Shown: piece after piece, positions 20,393 to 30,202 of the stretch
Numbering within the stretch: the stretch's first letter is position 1
Layout: each line of letters begins with the position of its first letter
DNA from: Clostridiaceae bacterium
GTDB taxonomy: Bacteria > Bacillota > Clostridia > Acetivibrionales > DULL01
Direction: 5' to 3'
Assembly (NCBI GenBank): GCA_012840395.1
Contig: DULL01000090.1
Location: 1-48,211 of the forward strand
Length of the DNA: 48,211 nucleotides
Notes under the pieces: generated by a model
Database searches by the model: none
What the model was told of the DNA's origin: nothing
The model's input: the letters and a program-made list of their open reading frames with translations, nothing else
Program-made: the position numbers and the translations under genes

Positions 20393-22783
20393 ATGATTTG
20401 TTTTAACTGTGGTATTAAACTTCATAAAGGCGAAGATAAAGAGTGTAAAGCATGTGGAGTAAAGTTTGTACATAAATGTCAGGTTTGTAATTCACCAAAT
20501 CCTGCGATGGCCAACTATTGTTTTAATTGTAGTGCAAAATTGATTAAATCCGACACACAGGAATTGGTCAGAGAATCTGTTTTGTTGTATGAAAGCCGGA
20601 AGAATGTGGCGGTTATCTTCGCTGATATATCAGGATTTACTGCTTTGTCAGAAAAATTAGATCCTGAAGAAGTAAGGGAGATCATTAATGACTGCTTTAA
20701 TTTCATAACAAAACCGGTATATGAGATGGAAGGAACCATAGATAAATATATCGGTGACTGTGTTATGATCCTTTTTGGGGCAAAATACACACATAGTGAT
20801 GATCCATTAAGAGCAGTCCTATGTGCAATGAAGATGATGGACCTTATTAAAGAATTCTCTGAAAGTGTCCTTTCTACCAGGGGGTTATTCCTGGATTTAA
20901 CCATTGGAATAAATTATGGCCTTGTTGTTACAGGAGAAGTAGGAAATTATTATGATAAAGATTATACGGTAATGGGAGATATAGTGAATACTGCCCAGAG
21001 ACTGCAATCCAGCGCCGGAAAGGGAGAAATACTTGTTTCTGAATCGGTATATTCCGAGACCAGGGATATGATTCAGTATTCATCTGTAAAAGAAGTAAGA
21101 GTAAAAAATAAGGAAAATCCCGTAAGATGTTATCAGCCCTTAGCTGTTAACAGAGATTACCTGCGTAAAAGAAATACTTTGTTTGTAGGCAGGGAAGAGG
21201 AGTTTGGCCAGTTTAATACAATATATAATGATGCTTTAAACAGCAGTGTACAGTGTATTATGCTGATAGGAGAAGCCGGCTCGGGAAAAACAAGGCTCAT
21301 AAAGGAGTTTATTTCCAGGGTAGATAATAGTGTTAAGAAAATATGGGTTGAATGTAATTATTTATATCAAAACAGGGCTTATTATGCCATAGCAAATGTA
21401 CTGGCAGCTATAATGAATATTAGTATTAGCGATACCAACAGCATGAAGCAGCACAGGCTTATTTCATTTCTGGATTATATCCTCTATGATTCTAGCAGTG
21501 AAGAGATAGAAAGATGCTATAATTTTCTTGGGATGATATTGGGTTTGGAAAAAGATGCGGATTTCAGAAATTTACTGGAAACCATGAGTTTTGAGAGTAT
21601 AAACAGGGAATCATTAAAGCAATTGCTGCTGTTTTTTAACGGAGTACTCAGAAAAAATAAAATAATGATTATTATTGATGATTTGCAATGTGCCGACAGC
21701 AACTCAATAAGGCTAATAAAGGGGCTTATAGAGAATTTAAAAGGTACAGGTATAATATTTATACTTTCTTCAAGATTTAAAATTGATGGCCTGGAAAACT
21801 TTAGCCGGAAAGGGATTTTTCATACTATAAACCTAAATGGACTTGATCTTGCCAATATGAAGAAATTTGCAGGAGCTTTGCTGGAATGCAAAGAAATTGA
21901 TAAAAAACTGCTTAATATTATTGCTGACCTTACCGGCGGAAATCCTTTATATATTAAAGAGCTTATATCCAGTATGAAAAAATCAATGAAATTAGAAATT
22001 ACTAATGGGAAAGCCTCAATCAACGTCGAGGATTTAAAGTCTTTCCTTGATGGCATTAACAATCTTGACAGTATTAATAGCCTTATTTTGTCAAAATTAT
22101 CTGATCTGGACTATAAAACGAGGATAATTCTGCAGGCTGCCTCAGTAATAGGTAAAGAATTTGACCTTTCTTTAGTAAGTTATCTTTTGGATCATGAAGT
22201 AATGGAAAAGGATATAACAGGATTACCCCTCCAGCAAAATATTATTGAAATAAAAACTGCTTATACACCTGCCAAGACTATTCAAAAGGTCTTTGCTTTT
22301 ACACATGAACTGGAACGGGAAGTGATATACGAAAGTATTTTGAATAGAGAAAAAAAGAGACTTCATAAAAAAGTTGGAGAATATATTGAAAAAGTATTTT
22401 CAGATGATATTGAAAACTATTATGAAATTGCGGCTTTCCATTTCCATAGAGCAGGGCTGGATAAAAAAGCTGCTAATTACTATTATAAAAATGCAGTTAA
22501 ACAGAAAGATGATTTTAACTTTAGCAGCGCTATAGAATATTTCGAAAAATTTATAGCTATTAATGCATCAAATCCTGAACAAAGTCAAAATGTTTCAAAT
22601 GCATACAGAGAAATGGGATATATGAGTTTAATTACGGAAGATTATGATAAAGCACTGGGATACCTTAATAAAGCAATTTCTTATACTAAAGATACCGGTG
22701 ACAGGCACCGGATTAATAAAATGATTATTGAAGTATATAAACAAAAAGAAAAGTTTGGAACACTAAAAAGAATTCATAGCTAG
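20393..22783 (+). CDS. Class III adenylyl cyclase with zinc ribbons, AAA/STAND ATPase and TPR
   Basis: The 796-residue protein has two N-terminal zinc ribbons (CFNC, CKAC, CQVC and CFNC within residues 3-46). A class III cyclase domain spans about 70-240. It has metal-binding Asp78 in 'FADISGFT' and Asp122 in 'KYIGDCV', transition-state Asn199 and Arg203 in 'VNTAQRL', and Lys118 with Thr192 as the base-selecting pair, which suggests ATP as substrate. An ATPase region follows with Walker A 'GEAGSGKTRLI' near 293 and Walker B 'IIIDDLQCAD' near 427. TPR-like helices close the protein, near 'AYREMGYMSLITEDYDKAL'. It lacks membrane segments. It is the last gene before the kinase-led Tad locus and may feed it a cAMP signal (inference). 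No cAMP-binding protein is seen in the window. Confidence 0.93.
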   Translation: MICFNCGIKLHKGEDKECKACGVKFVHKCQVCNSPNPAMANYCFNCSAKLIKSDTQELVRESVLLYESRKNVAVIFADISGFTALSEKLDPEEVREIINDCFNFITKPVYEMEGTIDKYIGDCVMILFGAKYTHSDDPLRAVLCAMKMMDLIKEFSESVLSTRGLFLDLTIGINYGLVVTGEVGNYYDKDYTVMGDIVNTAQRLQSSAGKGEILVSESVYSETRDMIQYSSVKEVRVKNKENPVRCYQPLAVNRDYLRKRNTLFVGREEEFGQFNTIYNDALNSSVQCIMLIGEAGSGKTRLIKEFISRVDNSVKKIWVECNYLYQNRAYYAIANVLAAIMNISISDTNSMKQHRLISFLDYILYDSSSEEIERCYNFLGMILGLEKDADFRNLLETMSFESINRESLKQLLLFFNGVLRKNKIMIIIDDLQCADSNSIRLIKGLIENLKGTGIIFILSSRFKIDGLENFSRKGIFHTINLNGLDLANMKKFAGALLECKEIDKKLLNIIADLTGGNPLYIKELISSMKKSMKLEITNGKASINVEDLKSFLDGINNLDSINSLILSKLSDLDYKTRIILQAASVIGKEFDLSLVSYLLDHEVMEKDITGLPLQQNIIEIKTAYTPAKTIQKVFAFTHELEREVIYESILNREKKRLHKKVGEYIEKVFSDDIENYYEIAAFHFHRAGLDKKAANYYYKNAVKQKDDFNFSSAIEYFEKFIAINASNPEQSQNVSNAYREMGYMSLITEDYDKALGYLNKAISYTKDTGDRHRINKMIIEVYKQKEKFGTLKRIHS

Positions 22784-22955: not shown

Positions 22956-23039
22956 AATGTCGTATTATATATAATTGTAATTTTTTACATTAATTTCTAA
23001 TTAATAAATGCCATAGTTATGATATACGGGGACAGTAAT

Positions 23040-24734
23040 ATGAATTGCGGGGAAATGTTTCAAGGAAAGTATAAGATAATCAGGATTCTAGGGCAGGGAG
23101 GAATGGGTAAAGTATACCTTGCCGAAAATATAAGATTAGGCACCTTATGGGCAATTAAAGAAATACAATTGGAAAAAGTAAAAGGCATAAATGTTCTTGC
23201 TGAAGCAAATATATTGAAAAGGCTTAATCACCCAGCTCTTCCAAGAATATTTGACATTTTTGAGGAAGATAACAAAATTTACATAATTTTTGACTATATT
23301 GAGGGAATATCCCTTGAAGATAAGCTGAAGGATGATGGTAAATTTTCTGAAAATACTGTAATTGAATGGGGGATACAGATTTGTAACGTACTAATTTATC
23401 TTCATTCAATAAAACCCAATCCTATTATTTACCGGGATCTGAAGCCATCAAATATTATACTTACCCAGGACGGAAGCATTAAGCTTGTTGATTTTGGAAT
23501 AGCCAGAGAGTATAAAGAAAATGCTGATAAAGATACTGTTTACATTGGTACAAGAGGCTATGCAGCTCCGGAACAATATGGAAAGGGACAGACTAATCCC
23601 AGGACAGATATATATAATTTAGGGGCTACCCTTCATCATCTTATTACAGGGAAAAGTCCTGCCGAACCCCCATTTGAATTTAAACCTGTGCGTTTTTATG
23701 ACAATAGCTTGTCAGAAGAAATTGAATTTATAATAGCCAAATGTGTAAGGAATAACCCGGAAGAAAGATTTGCTACTGCGGAAGAACTATTGGAACAGTT
23801 CATGAAAGTTAAGAATATTAGGGAATTTTCCTTGTACTATCAGCAAAATGGAATGAACAAGCAGAATAAGGATTTTGGTAGAAGCTCTTCGGGATTCAGA
23901 AAGCTTGTATTTACAGTTTGGGATAATGCAGAATTCGGTTGTGAGTTTGCATATCTTGCTGCCAGGTTGACAGTATACAATATTATACTGGTTGATTTAG
24001 ACCTTCTTGCCCCAAAAGCTGATCTTTGCCTGAATGTAGGAAAAATTTCAGAAGGAATAACCAGAGAGGGGCTTGTAAGTGATTCCAGTATTGGCATAGC
24101 AATGGATTTCATAGATAGAAACTGTCTTGATGGAAGCCTTATAAAAGAGATTTCAGTAAAGAGAAGAGAACTGAAAAATCTATACATTTTGACAGGTAAC
24201 TATAATATTGAAAACTATGAATATTTTAGCGACAGCAGTCTGGAAAGACTGATAGAGAAATGCTATCAGAGTTTTGACATTACTGTATTGCTGGTAAACA
24301 GATCAATCTACGATTCTTATACAGTTATCTCTTTATTAAAATCCGATTATAACCTTGTACCGGCAAGAGCTGATGTGGACAAACTCAGGGAAATAAACAG
24401 CCAGCTTGTATTCTTAAAAAACAAGCAACGTATAGAGTTGGAAAAAACAAAAATAATAGCCTTTGAATATGATCCGGCAGTGAATTTAAGCAGAAGCGCC
24501 TTAGAAGAATTAACTTCAAACAATTACTTGGGAAGTATAAGATATAGCGTCAGGAGGGCAAAGTACAGGAATCTGAAATTATGTTATGCAAGAAGAATGG
24601 AAAAGGAGGTAATGGATGATTATAAAAAACTTCTGTGTAAGTTTTCTATAATACCAAAAAAATCAGGCTTTGAGCGGTTAAGAGAAATATTAAAGGTGGG
24701 CTTTGTTAAAAAGAGATTTCAAATTCAGTTGTAA
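23040..24734 (+). CDS. Ser/Thr protein kinase fused to degenerate TadZ/CpaE-like domain
   Basis: The 564-residue protein begins with a complete eukaryotic-type kinase domain (about 9-265). It has Gly loop 'LGQGGMGKVYLA', catalytic Lys40 in 'WAIKEI', 'IYRDLKPSN' with Asp near 132, 'VDFG' near 151 and the 'GYAAPEQYG' activation segment, so it should be active. No membrane segment or PASTA domain follows. Instead residues about 285-520 have a ParA/MinD-type fold like the CpaE/TadZ pilus localisation proteins. 'IILVDLDLLAPKADLCL' is the Walker A' region, while the expected P-loop reads 'TVWDNAEFGCEFA' and lacks the Lys. ATG at 23040 has ACGGGGAC upstream; an in-frame ATG at 23019 is less likely. 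tadA follows at once. The kinase probably phosphorylates pilus components (inference). Confidence 0.9.
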   Translation: MNCGEMFQGKYKIIRILGQGGMGKVYLAENIRLGTLWAIKEIQLEKVKGINVLAEANILKRLNHPALPRIFDIFEEDNKIYIIFDYIEGISLEDKLKDDGKFSENTVIEWGIQICNVLIYLHSIKPNPIIYRDLKPSNIILTQDGSIKLVDFGIAREYKENADKDTVYIGTRGYAAPEQYGKGQTNPRTDIYNLGATLHHLITGKSPAEPPFEFKPVRFYDNSLSEEIEFIIAKCVRNNPEERFATAEELLEQFMKVKNIREFSLYYQQNGMNKQNKDFGRSSSGFRKLVFTVWDNAEFGCEFAYLAARLTVYNIILVDLDLLAPKADLCLNVGKISEGITREGLVSDSSIGIAMDFIDRNCLDGSLIKEISVKRRELKNLYILTGNYNIENYEYFSDSSLERLIEKCYQSFDITVLLVNRSIYDSYTVISLLKSDYNLVPARADVDKLREINSQLVFLKNKQRIELEKTKIIAFEYDPAVNLSRSALEELTSNNYLGSIRYSVRRAKYRNLKLCYARRMEKEVMDDYKKLLCKFSIIPKKSGFERLREILKVGFVKKRFQIQL

Positions 24735-24750: not shown

Positions 24751-26064
24751 ATGCCTGTAGTATATTCACATCATAGGTTAATAGGAAATGACAGGTTTTT
24801 AGAATATGATAATGTAAATAAAAAAATAAATGCTATAGTTTCCAATATTACTTTTGATATATTAAAGGATTCACCCGGTCTTGTAGCGGAAGTTGCAAAC
24901 GGCAATGTGGAAAGACATGTCCTTGAAAAAGAGATAATAAAAAACATTGACAGGAATAGGTACCATTTAGGTTTATACAGGGAGGAGCTAATAAAAAAAG
25001 TATTTGACTTTATGTTTGGGTATGGGGAGCTCCAGCAGTATATAGAAGACCAGGATATTTCAGATATTGATGGTACCAGGTACAATGAATTTGTCGTAAA
25101 AAGAAAAGGCATTCGTGAGAAAATAGATGTGAATTTTGGCAGTGAAAAAATATTTGATACATACTGCAAACTTATCGCAATAAGAAATGGGGGCATTCTT
25201 AACGAAAATGACAGCCATTGCCGGGTTACTGATGAGAACTACCGTCTTAGAATAAACGTTTCAATCAGTCCAAGAAATGCAAACGGGCCTTCAATAAGTA
25301 TAAGAAAGCACAGGAAGAACAGCTATACTATTCAAGATTTAAAAAAGTTGGGAATGATAGATGATTCTTTAGAGGAATTTATAAAACAGCTTGCTTGTTC
25401 TGACGCAACCATTCTTTTCTGTGGGAAAGGTGCGGCTGGAAAAACAACTCTTTTGAGGGCATTTGTTAACATACTTCCCGAAATGGAAAGGGTTCTCATT
25501 GCCGAGTCAGATACAGAAATATATCCTGACAAACCTTACTGCATACAGCAGAGAATAAAAAAGCAGAATGAGGGTGGACGCCCTGTAACGTTAAAAGATC
25601 TGGTAAGAGACGGACTTACCATGTCTCTGGATACATATTGCATAGGAGAAATAGTGGGAGAGGAAGCCTGGGAATTTGTAAAAGCTTCTTTTACAGGACA
25701 CAGAGGGATAGCCACGCTGCATTCTGAAAGTGCGGAGGATGCTTTTGGAAGGCTTCTTACGCTTTGCCAGGGAGCTGCTCTGGGTGAAAGTGAAAGAACC
25801 ATTAAAGAAATAATGTCAAAAAGTATAGACGTTATTTTTTACCTGAGTGAATTCAAAGTGGTAGATGTACTGGAGATAGTGGGTTACCAGAAAGAAAAGG
25901 ACCGGTTTGTTTTTAACAGGTTATTTCTGCTTGATAACAGGTACGGGGATAAAAATGGCTGTATTTTAGGAAGTTTTATAAAATGTAATGACCCGGGAGA
26001 AAGATTAAAAAGAAAACTCACTCCAAGAGGTAAAGGAAATGAATGTACTGGCACTTGTGGTTAA
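24751..26064 (+). CDS. tadA: Tad secretion ATPase TadA/CpaF
   Basis: This 437-residue type II/IV secretion ATPase powers assembly of Flp-type pili. It has Walker A 'CGKGAAGKTTLL' near residue 225, an Asp-box-like 'IAESDTEIY' near 251, Walker B region 'CIGEIVGEEAWEFVKA' near 298 and the His box 'GHRGIATLHSES' near 316. The N-terminal region contains the usual 'YGELQQYIEDQDISDI' stretch. The start is ATG at 24751 with GGGGGAG upstream; a longer reading would overlap the kinase gene. It overlaps tadB by 26 bases, which points to translational coupling. Confidence 0.95.
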   Translation: MPVVYSHHRLIGNDRFLEYDNVNKKINAIVSNITFDILKDSPGLVAEVANGNVERHVLEKEIIKNIDRNRYHLGLYREELIKKVFDFMFGYGELQQYIEDQDISDIDGTRYNEFVVKRKGIREKIDVNFGSEKIFDTYCKLIAIRNGGILNENDSHCRVTDENYRLRINVSISPRNANGPSISIRKHRKNSYTIQDLKKLGMIDDSLEEFIKQLACSDATILFCGKGAAGKTTLLRAFVNILPEMERVLIAESDTEIYPDKPYCIQQRIKKQNEGGRPVTLKDLVRDGLTMSLDTYCIGEIVGEEAWEFVKASFTGHRGIATLHSESAEDAFGRLLTLCQGAALGESERTIKEIMSKSIDVIFYLSEFKVVDVLEIVGYQKEKDRFVFNRLFLLDNRYGDKNGCILGSFIKCNDPGERLKRKLTPRGKGNECTGTCG

Positions 26065-27001
26065 TTCACTTTCACTTGCAGGAACCACCGTAATTCTTTC
26101 TATTCTAATAATCCAGACAATAGATATTAACAGATTGGTTCATATGGGTATTGAAAAACTCAGCTCAGATTATCATGAAAGAAGAATCAGAAGAACAATA
26201 AAAAATTATGTAGGGACTTTGAAAGTTAGAATAAGTTTTATGGAAAAAATAGAACTCTATTTAATAGAGAAGTCCAATATACGAAAGTATATACCTTTTG
26301 TAAATTCCTATGTTTTACTATTTTGCTGCTTAATTATATTTATAATTACTTTCCGGTTAGTGTATAAGGCTTTATTATCTGTAATTGCCGCAGGCATAAT
26401 ATGTATAATTTTTTCCTTAATCCCGGTTTTTGTATTGGACATTTTAGGCAGGTATAATTCTGAGAAAGTACGCAGGAAACTTGCTGAGTTTATCTCTATA
26501 CTAAACAGGTGGTGTGCAGTAAAGGAAGACATTTTCTATGCTTTTGAGAGATCTCTCGGGTCAGGACTTCAGGAACCGTTGAAATCGTTTATAAGGGATA
26601 TGATTATTCAAATAAACGGAGGAGTAGAGCCTTTAACTGCATTGGAAATATTAAGTATGAAGGTTGATAATGCCCAGTTCAGGGATTTTATTATCAACAT
26701 CAAACAAAATGTCAGGTATAGGGGAGATATAAGGGTGCTTCTTACCAATATGGAGAACCAGTTTTATAAGATTGAGGAAGAATACAGCCGAAGAAAGATA
26801 TCAACTTATAAAGACAGGATATTAGTGTACTGTACCATGTTTGGTGTTTTAATTACCGGATATTATTTTCTTAATATTAATCCGAAGGTAAAGGAGTTTT
26901 ATTTCGGTACACCGGAGGGAAGAAATTTACTGATACTTTTTAGCCTTTTATTCGCAAGCGGATTTTTTCTGGCTTTCAGGATTGCCAAATTCAAACATTA
27001 G
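26039..27001 (+). CDS. tadB: Tad inner membrane platform protein TadB
   Basis: This 320-residue membrane protein has segments at about 5-27, 85-105, 108-130, 265-282 and 298-316. Its cytoplasmic GspF/T2SSF-type domain lies between about 130 and 260, including 'KLAEFISILNRWCAVKEDIF'. TadB and TadC form the membrane platform above the TadA ATPase. It begins inside the end of tadA. Three bases separate its stop from the ribosome site of tadC. No oddities were seen. Confidence 0.88.
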   Translation: MNVLALVVNSLSLAGTTVILSILIIQTIDINRLVHMGIEKLSSDYHERRIRRTIKNYVGTLKVRISFMEKIELYLIEKSNIRKYIPFVNSYVLLFCCLIIFIITFRLVYKALLSVIAAGIICIIFSLIPVFVLDILGRYNSEKVRRKLAEFISILNRWCAVKEDIFYAFERSLGSGLQEPLKSFIRDMIIQINGGVEPLTALEILSMKVDNAQFRDFIINIKQNVRYRGDIRVLLTNMENQFYKIEEEYSRRKISTYKDRILVYCTMFGVLITGYYFLNINPKVKEFYFGTPEGRNLLILFSLLFASGFFLAFRIAKFKH

Positions 27002-27012
27002 AGGTGATTCTG

Positions 27013-27915
27013 TTGGAAGTACTGCTTCAGTTTGCAAATATGCACAGATATTTTGTCATCATTATTCTATTTTTTAATTTCATGTTATCAAGTTTAATAA
27101 TGAAGAAAATGCAAGTTCATTTTAACAGGTATATTTATGAAGCTTTAGGAGGGAGGGATGAAAAGAAAGCCTTGCATGTAATATATATATCGGTTTTCAG
27201 GGATATATTAAGCAGGTATGAAAGGAGGAGCAAAAATTATGGTTTCTATAAAAAAATAGTAAATAAAATGAAAAAATCAGGATATAGTTACGAAAAAGCA
27301 CCGATGATATACTTTGCACTAAAATTCGTTCTTCTTCCCCTGCTATTCATTGCATTTTTTATTATTAATTATCCGGATATTATAAAAGCTGCAGCAGCCA
27401 CAACCGTAATATTTATTATTATGGAACTGGTTATATTGGCCAGGAAGAAAGCGCATAATTTAAAGCTTCAAAAAAATATATACAAGATATACAAATATCT
27501 TCATAACCAGATCTCTTCCGGTGTAAGGGTGACAGATGCGGTAAAGACCGTGTATGAAGTTATAGAGGATAAAAAACTTAGAAATATTCTCATAAGGCTG
27601 GCTGCAACCTATGAGCTTACTCTTGATATTGATAAAGCTCTTGGTGAATTTAAATCAAACTACGACACACCAGAATCAGAGACCTTGTGTGTGGCATTGA
27701 AGCAGGGAGTGCTTACAGGAGATAACAGGGAGCTTCTTGCAAGGCAGGAAGATATAATGTTCAACAAATATTTTTATTATATACAGGCTGAAACAGATAA
27801 TTGCAGGTTTAAAAGTGCTGCGGCTGTAGGGCTATTCTGCTCAGTTATAGTAATAATGATATTAATTCCTATGATAATGGATGTTACTGATGCTGTAAGA
27901 AGGATATTTATCTAA
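27013..27915 (+). CDS. tadC: Tad inner membrane platform protein TadC
   Basis: This 300-residue membrane protein of the T2SSF type has hydrophobic segments near residues 10-28, 100-120, 122-140 and 270-292. Its cytoplasmic core contains 'LHNQISSGVRVTDAVKTVYE', the family's helical motif region. The start is probably TTG at 27013, with GAGGTG (27001-27006) six bases before it; GTG at 27004 lies inside that ribosome site. It pairs with TadB as the pilus assembly platform. Confidence 0.87.
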   Translation: MEVLLQFANMHRYFVIIILFFNFMLSSLIMKKMQVHFNRYIYEALGGRDEKKALHVIYISVFRDILSRYERRSKNYGFYKKIVNKMKKSGYSYEKAPMIYFALKFVLLPLLFIAFFIINYPDIIKAAAATTVIFIIMELVILARKKAHNLKLQKNIYKIYKYLHNQISSGVRVTDAVKTVYEVIEDKKLRNILIRLAATYELTLDIDKALGEFKSNYDTPESETLCVALKQGVLTGDNRELLARQEDIMFNKYFYYIQAETDNCRFKSAAAVGLFCSVIVIMILIPMIMDVTDAVRRIFI

Positions 27916-27992
27916 AATCTTCACTTCTATAAGGTGGAGAGGATCAAAAAAAGCAAAAATAAATAAAAAGGAATTTAAGAAAGGTGGTCATT

Positions 27993-28229
27993 ATGTCAAG
28001 GTTTAAAGAAATCAAAAGATATTATAGTTTAAAATTCATGAATTTTATAAAAGGCAATGGAGGCTTTGGGTTAAATGAATTTTTAGGTATTGCGGCTGCA
28101 TTGATAGTTGCTGCGCTGGTTGTGATACCGGGGCTGAGAGGATTTAGTGAAGATGTAATGACCGGGCTTAAAACCTGGTGGGACAAAATAGCTTCCAGAA
28201 TTTTTCAGGAAAATACTACTGCGTGGTAA
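27993..28229 (+). CDS. flp: Flp-type prepilin (candidate major pilin)
   Basis: This 78-residue protein has a basic leader of about 27 residues, then 'GG|FGLNEFLGIAAALIVAALV'-type prepilin features: a Gly-Phe junction, Glu at +5 and an aromatic residue at +6 of the mature chain, followed by a single hydrophobic helix. That is the Flp pilin pattern processed by a TadV/CpaA peptidase. The leader is longer than usual. The short mature tail has 'WWDKIASRIF'. The start is ATG at 27993 with AAAGGTGG upstream. It follows tadC by 77 bases and is probably the most highly expressed gene of the locus, though this cannot be seen. Confidence 0.82.
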   Translation: MSRFKEIKRYYSLKFMNFIKGNGGFGLNEFLGIAAALIVAALVVIPGLRGFSEDVMTGLKTWWDKIASRIFQENTTAW

Positions 28230-28232
28230 TAA

Positions 28233-28610
28233 ATGTCGGCTAAAGCAATTATATTTTCAATATTGTTAATTATAATCATAACCTTTACTATAAGCACTGT
28301 TGAACTGTTTTTACCTCTGGCAGCCAGGGCGGATATGAATATGCTTTGCAGAAAGTGCCTTTTACAGATGGAGGTAAATGGAGGAATGTCCCCGGCCATT
28401 AAGGATGAGCTCTATCAGAAGCTTGCGGCAACAGGCTTTAAGGATATTGTGATACAGGGTACTGAGAATGCAGCTTATGGCAATGAAATTAGTTTAACGG
28501 TAGAAGCCGGCTACACCTACAGCAGAATAGAAGCGCTTTTTACGAGAACCGAAGTTGTACAGAGAATGAGATATAAAGGAACAAGCCTGTCAAGAAAGGT
28601 AGTTAATTAA
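28233..28610 (+). CDS. Small Tad pilin-like membrane protein (TadE/DUF4320-like)
   Basis: The 125-residue protein has one N-terminal membrane helix (about 5-28) and a small extracytoplasmic domain with two cysteines (Cys39, Cys42). It starts three bases after the stop of the pilin gene without a clear ribosome site, so it is probably translated by coupling. In Clostridia, Tad loci commonly hold such single-helix proteins after flp, often classed with DUF4320. It may be a minor pilin, but it lacks a clear prepilin cleavage site. The family name is tentative. Confidence 0.72.
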   Translation: MSAKAIIFSILLIIIITFTISTVELFLPLAARADMNMLCRKCLLQMEVNGGMSPAIKDELYQKLAATGFKDIVIQGTENAAYGNEISLTVEAGYTYSRIEALFTRTEVVQRMRYKGTSLSRKVVN

Positions 28611-28680: not shown

Positions 28681-29244
28681 ATGTTTAAAAGAGTTAATGT
28701 CTTAGGTATAAAAAGTTTACCACTCAAAACAAACAACAGGGGAGGGGCAGTGGGGGAAGTAATAATTGTAGCGGCTATAATAGTTTTCATACTTTTTCCG
28801 ATGATTTCAGCAGTAATTGAAAGATATCTGATAAATATCAAATTACAAATTATAAAAGACGCAGTTGATATTACAAATATATCTACCTATGTTTCCATTG
28901 ACCCGGAATATTTGGGAAGGAACTTGGTAATCCATGATCAATCAGAAGTATGGGAAATTTATAGCAAGCTATTATCAAGCAACCTTAATTTAAAAGAAGA
29001 TCTTTCCCCGGAAGATAATTCAGTAGCAGAGGAGAAAGTTAAAGTAGAATCTATTATCATTTATACCGGGGATAACCCTGAAAAATGCCCCTTAGGTACT
29101 GATATCAGGCGTCCTGGAGTGCACAGCCTTATTACTGTTCCGGTGAAACCTTCACTATACAGCCAAATCATTCTGAACCTTATGGGCAAAAATTCCATTG
29201 AATTAAGAATCCACGTGGATTCGGAAGTTCCGGTTAATAACTAG
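28681..29244 (+). CDS. TadE/TadG-like pseudopilin
   Basis: The 187-residue protein has a leader of about 21 residues ending in 'NNRGG', then 'AVGEVIIVAAIIVFILF', one membrane helix. The Glu placed four or five residues after the Gly pair resembles prepilins of the TadE/TadF group. The remaining 140 residues form a mixed extracytoplasmic domain. AAGGGA precedes the ATG. It is likely a minor pilin of the Tad apparatus, processed by a prepilin peptidase encoded elsewhere. Assignment rests on the N-terminus and position. Confidence 0.75.
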   Translation: MFKRVNVLGIKSLPLKTNNRGGAVGEVIIVAAIIVFILFPMISAVIERYLINIKLQIIKDAVDITNISTYVSIDPEYLGRNLVIHDQSEVWEIYSKLLSSNLNLKEDLSPEDNSVAEEKVKVESIIIYTGDNPEKCPLGTDIRRPGVHSLITVPVKPSLYSQIILNLMGKNSIELRIHVDSEVPVNN

Positions 29245-29261
29245 ATGGAGTGGTTAGTTCA

Positions 29262-29909
29262 ATGAAAAAAATAAATGTGATTTTGCTTACCATCATACTA
29301 GTAATAGTTCTACTTATAGTAGAGATAATAATTGTAAGAAGTGCTGCAGAATATGAACCTGAGATAGAGGTGGTATTTGCAGGAGTTAAGATTCCTGAAG
29401 GTACTCCTATTACGCCTGATATGCTCATAAAAAAGAAAATTAGTATTAGTTATGCCCATAAGCAGTCAGTAAGAAATATTGAGGAAACTGCATACAAAAA
29501 AGCGAAAGTAGACATTGAAGAAGGTGAAATGCTCCTTAACGGGAAACTAGCGGATTTAGAAGAAATGGATCAAATTGTTATTATGGACAGAAGCAACAGG
29601 CTCTTTTCAGTTGAATTTAAGGGAGATCAGGCTAACGGTTGGTGGTTGAAGGCAGGACAATATGTAGATATAATATTTGTACCTAATGAAAAAGGAAACA
29701 CAGAAGCGAAGGGTATGCAAAAATCCGTAGAGAAGCTTAAAAATGTACGAGTAGCTGCGATTATTGATGAAAAAGGAAGACTGGTAAAGGATACTGAAGG
29801 GACAGCTCTTCCAAGATATATATCCTTTGAATTAAGCGATGATCAGTGTGATTTTCTGGCTTATGCAAAGGGAAACGGGAGACTTGAAATTTCAGTAATA
29901 CCTGAATAA
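29262..29909 (+). CDS. cpaB: CpaB/RcpC-like SAF-domain pilus protein
   Basis: The 215-residue protein has an N-terminal membrane anchor (about 4-24) followed by a SAF domain with 'VKIPEGTPITPDMLIKK' near residue 44, the signature of CpaB/RcpC. In Gram-negatives CpaB works with the outer-membrane secretin; in Gram-positives it is kept although no secretin exists, and may guide the pilus through the wall (inference). The start is ATG at 29262, with GGAGTGG upstream; an in-frame GTG at 29250 overlaps that site. It closes the Tad gene run. Confidence 0.87.
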   Translation: MKKINVILLTIILVIVLLIVEIIIVRSAAEYEPEIEVVFAGVKIPEGTPITPDMLIKKKISISYAHKQSVRNIEETAYKKAKVDIEEGEMLLNGKLADLEEMDQIVIMDRSNRLFSVEFKGDQANGWWLKAGQYVDIIFVPNEKGNTEAKGMQKSVEKLKNVRVAAIIDEKGRLVKDTEGTALPRYISFELSDDQCDFLAYAKGNGRLEISVIPE

Positions 29910-29965
29910 AATACTATGCCAGAGGAATTTATAAATTGCAAAAAATACTATCAGGAGGCTTTATT

Positions 29966-30202
29966 ATGGCAGATATAAAGTTTGAGATTATAAAAAATAT
30001 AGGAGTAATTAGTGAAGGTACTAAGGGATGGAAGAAGGAAATTAATATAGTGAAATGGAATGACCGCAATCCTAAAGTTGATATTAGAGATTGGGATGAA
30101 AGCCACACAAAAATGGGAAAAGGAATTACCTTAGACAAAGAGGAGACAATTGAACTTAAAAAAATACTGGACAAATTCGATCCTGAGGAATTGGAAAGTT
30201 AG
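29966..30202 (+). CDS. YdbC/PC4-like single-stranded DNA-binding protein
   Basis: This 78-residue protein shows the YdbC pattern 'FEIIKNIGVISEGTKGWKKE' followed by 'KVDIRDWDESHTKMGKGITL'. Proteins of this family have the fold of the eukaryotic coactivator PC4 and bind single-stranded DNA. AGGAGG lies eight bases before the ATG at 29966. It stands alone between the Tad locus and the AraC regulator; no link to the pilus is apparent. Length and motif match closely. Confidence 0.9.
   Translation: MADIKFEIIKNIGVISEGTKGWKKEINIVKWNDRNPKVDIRDWDESHTKMGKGITLDKEETIELKKILDKFDPEELES

Follow-up and report, generated by a model that had tools for sequence, protein, structure and literature searches.

A predicted Ser/Thr kinase fused to a TadZ-like domain heads a Tad pilus locus in Clostridia

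Introduction

TadZ normally positions the machine that builds a bacterial surface pilus. Little is known of how Tad pili are switched on and placed, and both the receiver and the weak ATPase of TadZ are puzzles. In Clostridia, where Tad loci are common, they have received little study.

Caulobacter CpaE dimers have been modelled in situ as a ring round CpaF in which REC domains provide contacts between dimers, and the contacts of CpaE are altered once the pilus is out (PMC13170226). TadZ is regarded as an ATP-binding ATPase of an atypical kind (PMC6668835). The closest described relatives of the protein reported here are T7SS kinases and TsfV in Bacillota (PMC11217815). In the open-access papers searched by text, a fusion of a kinase with TadZ was not found described.

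We analysed a stretch of 48,211 nucleotides from a Clostridiaceae bacterium (contig DULL01000090.1; hereafter the window). A preliminary description of this DNA had proposed that one gene joins a complete Ser/Thr kinase to a TadZ/CpaE-like region and leads a Tad locus. We consider it fairly probable that this protein serves a Tad (type IVc) pilus as a scaffold of the TadZ/CpaE type, that its active-looking Ser/Thr kinase occupies the place of the N-terminal receiver, and that the kinase controls the Tad motor complex.

Results

The fusion gene is a single open frame on the forward strand (23040-24734; 564 codons plus stop), and the same fusion is found in relatives. An in-frame ATG is also present at 23019, which is the less likely start since GGGGA precedes 23040. 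The Ser/Thr protein kinase domain, of the RD type, lies at 23070-23795 (residues 11-252; PF00069, E 1e-50). It carries the motifs LGQGGMGKV, AIK, AEANI, YRDLKPSN, DFG and GTRGYAAPEQ in order, with the catalytic loop IIYRDLKPSNIIL at 23424-23462. The features of an active Ser/Thr kinase are all present (Gly-loop, catalytic Lys, helix-C Glu, catalytic Asp, DFG and APE), so the domain is complete, as had been described, and on this full motif set it is active-looking. The match to NF033483 (4e-54) covered the kinase part only and scored 184.5 bits against a cut-off of 450; PASTA repeats are absent. Only two Ser/Thr kinases exceeded the Pfam cut-off in the genome, the window kinase and a PrkC with PASTA repeats. 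No evident sensor domain was found in the fusion protein. A linker of about 33 amino acids, far longer in some relatives, separates the two halves (23796-23894). Sites from a promoter and terminator scan were not above shuffles.

The C-terminal half alone gave no match in a Pfam search, and none in a direct phmmer search against the PDB. A profile of 28 relatives matched the ParA-family ATPase 3ea0 at 1.6e-5, and AlphaFold2 with a 13-sequence family alignment returned a model with pLDDT 86.5 and pTM 0.86. Solved structures matching this model were those of MinD, ParA, FleN and TadZ, among them 3ea0 (Z 25.8, 232 residues, 2.4 Å) and Eubacterium rectale TadZ, 3fkq, at Z 19.8 over 221 residues. 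Because of these matches the earlier fold claim holds: as modelled, the C-terminal half is a TadZ-like domain of ParA/MinD fold (23895-24659). The A' motif, VDLDLL (23991-24008), is kept, as previously noted, and its Asp residues are invariant among close family members.

The P-loop site reads VWDNAEF, of which WDNAEF (23919-23936) is invariant in the 13-sequence alignment. In an alignment with a relative whose loop is intact (L026, GAGAVGKS) the site is about 5 residues shorter, and in the AlphaFold2 model strand 10-15 and helix 18-31 are joined by a loop of only two residues. The P-loop itself is therefore missing. The preliminary description was right that the Lys has been lost, and understated the defect. 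Loss of the Lys alone is not unusual for TadZ, since the E. rectale protein reads GGVGTST at this site; loss of the loop is more extreme. Judged from the sequence, the missing loop argues against ATP binding, and against an ATP-dependent dimer, by the C-terminal domain. A basic C-terminal helix was predicted at 24666-24728 (AlphaFold2, low confidence). Its hydrophobic moment was not above that of shuffled sequences (p 0.79), and a membrane-targeting role for the helix thus found no support.

The fusion gene heads an operon on one strand and, as had been claimed, leads a Tad locus. It is followed by tadA/cpaF, encoding the motor ATPase (24751-26064; PF00437 4e-28, TIGR03819 5e-37), whose start is preceded by GGGGAGA. 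The platform protein genes tadB, which overlaps the end of tadA (26039-27001; weak T2SSF match and synteny), and tadC (27004-27915; T2SSF 2e-6 and synteny) come next. Then follow an flp-like pilin gene (27984-28229; assigned by position and conservation in relatives), genes for a TadE-like minor pilin (28233-28610; weak DUF4320 match and synteny) and a second TadE-like or pseudopilin protein (28681-29244; synteny), and cpaB/rcpC (29250-29909; TIGR03177 3e-15, PF16976 1e-6). No phosphatase or FHA partner was found in the window operon; as to a dedicated phosphatase, the only PP2C_2 match adjoins PrkC and not this operon. A small PC4/p15-like protein is encoded directly after cpaB (29936-30202), and occupies the same place in many relatives. 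Just upstream of the fusion, on the same strand, 20393-22783 encodes a zinc-ribbon, adenylate/guanylate cyclase and AAA protein, which is not among the genes conserved at the loci of relatives.

The gene order fliD-fliS-flgN, kinase-TadZ, tadA-tadB-tadC-flp-tadE-tadE2-cpaB, PC4-AraC-leuC recurs, whole or in part, in about a dozen genera, so that the same domain order precedes tadA in other genomes. Wherever downstream DNA was annotated, the fusion of the window's class (C1) leads a tad or tad-like operon. In a second set of loci (L105-L107, L109, L111) what follows the fusion is cpaB, in most cases another MinD-like gene, and genes for a TadA-like ATPase and two platform proteins, and L115 and L117 likewise have the fusion with cpaB and a TadA-like gene. 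C1 kinase fusions were present in 20 of the 58 genomes of the order, a count that leaves out a copy cut by a contig end (G047). In a sample of the class (391 genomes) 15 genomes, belonging to 11 families, had the C1 domain joined to a kinase, and in a sample of the phylum (398 genomes) only the window itself was found. This spread bears on the possibility that two genes were joined through an assembly or sequencing error. One of the 20, a draft genome (G029, locus L006), has an in-frame TAA within the C-terminal half of an otherwise normal fusion, and nothing else favours such a join; it is refuted by about 20 independent assemblies that contain this fusion, several being single-contig, and its chance is negligible. 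The gene is thus a single one, as originally read.

Across many genera, 24 of 31 fusion ORFs have lost none of four catalytic residues (the catalytic Lys, helix-C Glu, the catalytic Asp and the DFG Asp). The activation loop of these 24, DT[VIT]xxG[TS], hardly varies. The other seven, all distant, have weakened kinases. These data bear on a structural alternative in which the kinase fold would take over the receiver's part as a contact in a dimer or ring, with no need for catalysis. Such a role would accord with the contacts modelled for the Caulobacter REC domains (PMC13170226) and with the degenerate Gly-loops or HRD motifs of some distant fusions; however, catalytic residues would hardly be so widely kept, and we regard this alternative as distinctly improbable beside a kinase that controls the motor complex by its activity.

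The same P-loop-less C1 domain was also found behind a different N-terminus in other Clostridia (L022-L024, L035-L038, L041 and others). The AlphaFold model of one such sister was poor (pLDDT 52.7). Its first 123 residues show the alternating strand-helix order of a receiver, and this N-terminus, in the low-confidence model, matched receivers including that of Pseudomonas aeruginosa TadZ (4lda, Z 13.3). By sequence profile no link was found between canonical receivers and the N-termini of C1 sisters, or those of the C2b sisters described below. Kinase and receiver-type rows were intermixed in the C1 tree, and a test without the long-branch rows spoke mildly against a single kinase clade (AU p 0.027). 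Since the C1 sisters are receiver-like and the two kinds of row are mixed, we read the window protein as a TadZ with a kinase in the receiver's place. The P-loop defect does not depend on the kinase, for receiver-type sisters are without the loop too, and on these sequences its loss probably preceded the kinase. The idea that the kinase was gained to compensate for P-loop loss was rejected as too simple an account, since within the same classes the sisters that have no kinase are without the Lys as well.

Many of the other kinases of about 500-600 amino acids in the order were also fused to ParA-like domains, which fell into further classes. Their P-loop sites read GGTGVST (C2a), GHRGSGVTS (C2b), GDRASGTT (C2c), GAINRIGTTH (C2d) and GVSSGSGATH (C2e, from a Paenibacillus plasmid record in which the frame is broken), and the P-loop Lys is absent from all five. 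Members of C2a and C2b match Pfam AAA_31 or CbiA, and C2a is without the HRD Arg. Fusions of the C2 type were present in 17 genomes of the order. These do not overlap with the 20 that have C1 kinases, and 37 of the 58 thus carry one type or the other. The kinases of the two types are for the most part 57-80% identical. The C1 kinases are 55-73% identical to those of C2b, C2c and C2d, and C2b is 77-80% identical to C2d in this domain; C2a and C2e kinases are more distant (36-55%). In the kinase tree C1 and C2 kinases were mixed, and stood apart from PrkC. The C-terminal halves share 15-31% identity between classes, on average the same as shuffled sequence, and yet a comparison of profiles shows a weak relation between C1 and C2 (hhalign 84%, 8e-6). 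A C1 locus (L105) and C2c loci (L178/L181) have the same cpaB, MinD-like and TadA-like genes downstream (TadA-like, 8e-218 or better), which indicates that the two halves of the fusion had different histories at what is seemingly one locus. Domain exchange best explains this near-constant kinase on unlike C-terminal halves, with unusually fast divergence as a possible alternative.

Non-kinase versions were found for C2b (L199, which shares 67% identity with a kinase-fused member; L204, L206-L216; L217 and L218), C2c (L205, L219-L232) and C2d (L138, 45%), their N-termini being called receiver-like by length and pattern only, except for L138 with its weak match to PF00072 (0.0017). These versions also lack the P-loop Lys, and loss of the Lys is therefore probably older than the kinase. 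On the Paenibacillus plasmid pHD02 an unannotated kinase is joined to a ParA-like stretch with a broken frame (L139:5911-7164), and SAF/CpaB, MinD-like and TadA-like genes lie downstream. Fusions of a kinase with a ParA-like domain thus seem to reach Bacilli.

Other Tad loci were also seen. At L035/L120, L121 and L138 (1-16777) a receiver-type or stand-alone P-loop-less TadZ and a tad cassette come immediately after genes of conjugation type (VirB4-like ATPase, large membrane protein, M23 peptidase and PrgI), the layout of a Tad-like pilus within a T4SS or mobile-element locus. The window's own genome has a second Tad locus on contig C34 (L135:8385-14307) with tadA, tadB, tadC and a DUF6382-FHA protein; its TadZ is of the receiver type (PF21194) with an intact P-loop, GGTGKTT.

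That pThr-binding DUF6382-FHA protein is the kind of target expected if the fused kinase signals outward, reporting the state of the pilus machine to proteins elsewhere. It is the only FHA protein found in the genome and sits in a Tad locus, and the nearest plasmid-borne relative of the kinase is encoded in a T7SS locus alongside genes for PP2C and FHA proteins. However, DUF6382 was found in 56 of the 58 genomes of the order, with or without a window-type fusion, which makes the co-occurrence uninformative, and PrkC could equally serve the same FHA protein. We therefore consider outward signalling unlikely, and favour a kinase directed at the Tad motor complex itself.

Discussion

If the fused kinase controls the Tad motor complex, the nucleotide-dead TadZ domain, probably in dimeric form, would dock on the TadA hexamer or the platform, a step we infer by comparison with Caulobacter CpaE and CpaF. 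Docking would crowd the kinases and so allow mutual (trans) activation on the conserved Thr of the activation loop. The activated kinases might then phosphorylate TadA, TadB, TadC or the scaffold itself, switching pilus assembly in response to a signal, and the kinase would assume the control post that the receiver holds in ordinary TadZ. With no sensor domain evident in the protein, the trigger may be recruitment itself. That the P-loop of the fusion partner has gone while its fold and A' motif persist is consistent with this model; the unremarkable moment of the C-terminal helix, the seven weakened kinases, the missing HRD Arg of C2a and the lack of a phosphatase or FHA partner in the window operon count against it.

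The design is not peculiar to this genome, as related kinases are found on several unlike TadZ-type scaffolds. A broader proposal, to which we give about even chances, is that the kinase is a portable control cartridge of clostridial Tad machines. It would repeatedly have taken the receiver's place on different TadZ-like scaffolds, all without the P-loop Lys, or have stayed while the scaffold half was exchanged, giving a family of Tad pili run by phosphorylation and not by a receiver and ATPase switch. This bacterium and many of its relatives probably have a Tad pilus with built-in phosphorylation control, as far as their gene sequences tell. What stands in the receiver's position in this protein is a predicted enzyme, on a scaffold that lacks a normal P-loop. 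The activity of such an enzyme could be assayed and a single mutation would abolish it, which makes the role of the N-terminal module of TadZ directly testable. With a kinase that hardly varies and C-terminal halves that differ greatly, the fusions are also a striking example of apparent domain exchange at a single operon position.

Among known systems, the PrkC/PknB-type kinases share the catalytic domain (NF033483, 4e-54 over the kinase part), but the window kinase is without PASTA repeats and stands apart from the PrkC of its own genome in the kinase tree. The T7SS kinases of Bacillota (TscD, TsdD and TseD; PMC11217815) are related, and a kinase of an Agathobacter rectalis T7SS locus is 51% identical; theirs have a membrane helix and other C-terminal regions, in contrast to a TadZ fusion. 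An A. rectalis plasmid T7SS locus has PP2C, kinase and FHA genes (L137:8203-12153), and of the plasmid-borne sequences its kinase matches the window kinase best. In TsfV of T7SSf a TadZ piece has likewise been recombined with another module, but there a TadZ-like receiver is joined to an AAA+ ATPase, whereas in the window protein it is the receiver that is missing (PMC11217815). TadZ/CpaE (3fkq; Caulobacter CpaE) share with the window protein the ParA/MinD-fold domain, a place in a tad locus beside tadA and a deviant Walker A motif. They differ in having an N-terminal (atypical) receiver where the window protein has a kinase (PF00069), and the window P-loop is shortened by about 5 residues, beyond an altered sequence. 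The window protein is thus TadZ-like by fold, locus and motif but without the TadZ receiver, and for that reason we count it as a TadZ variant.
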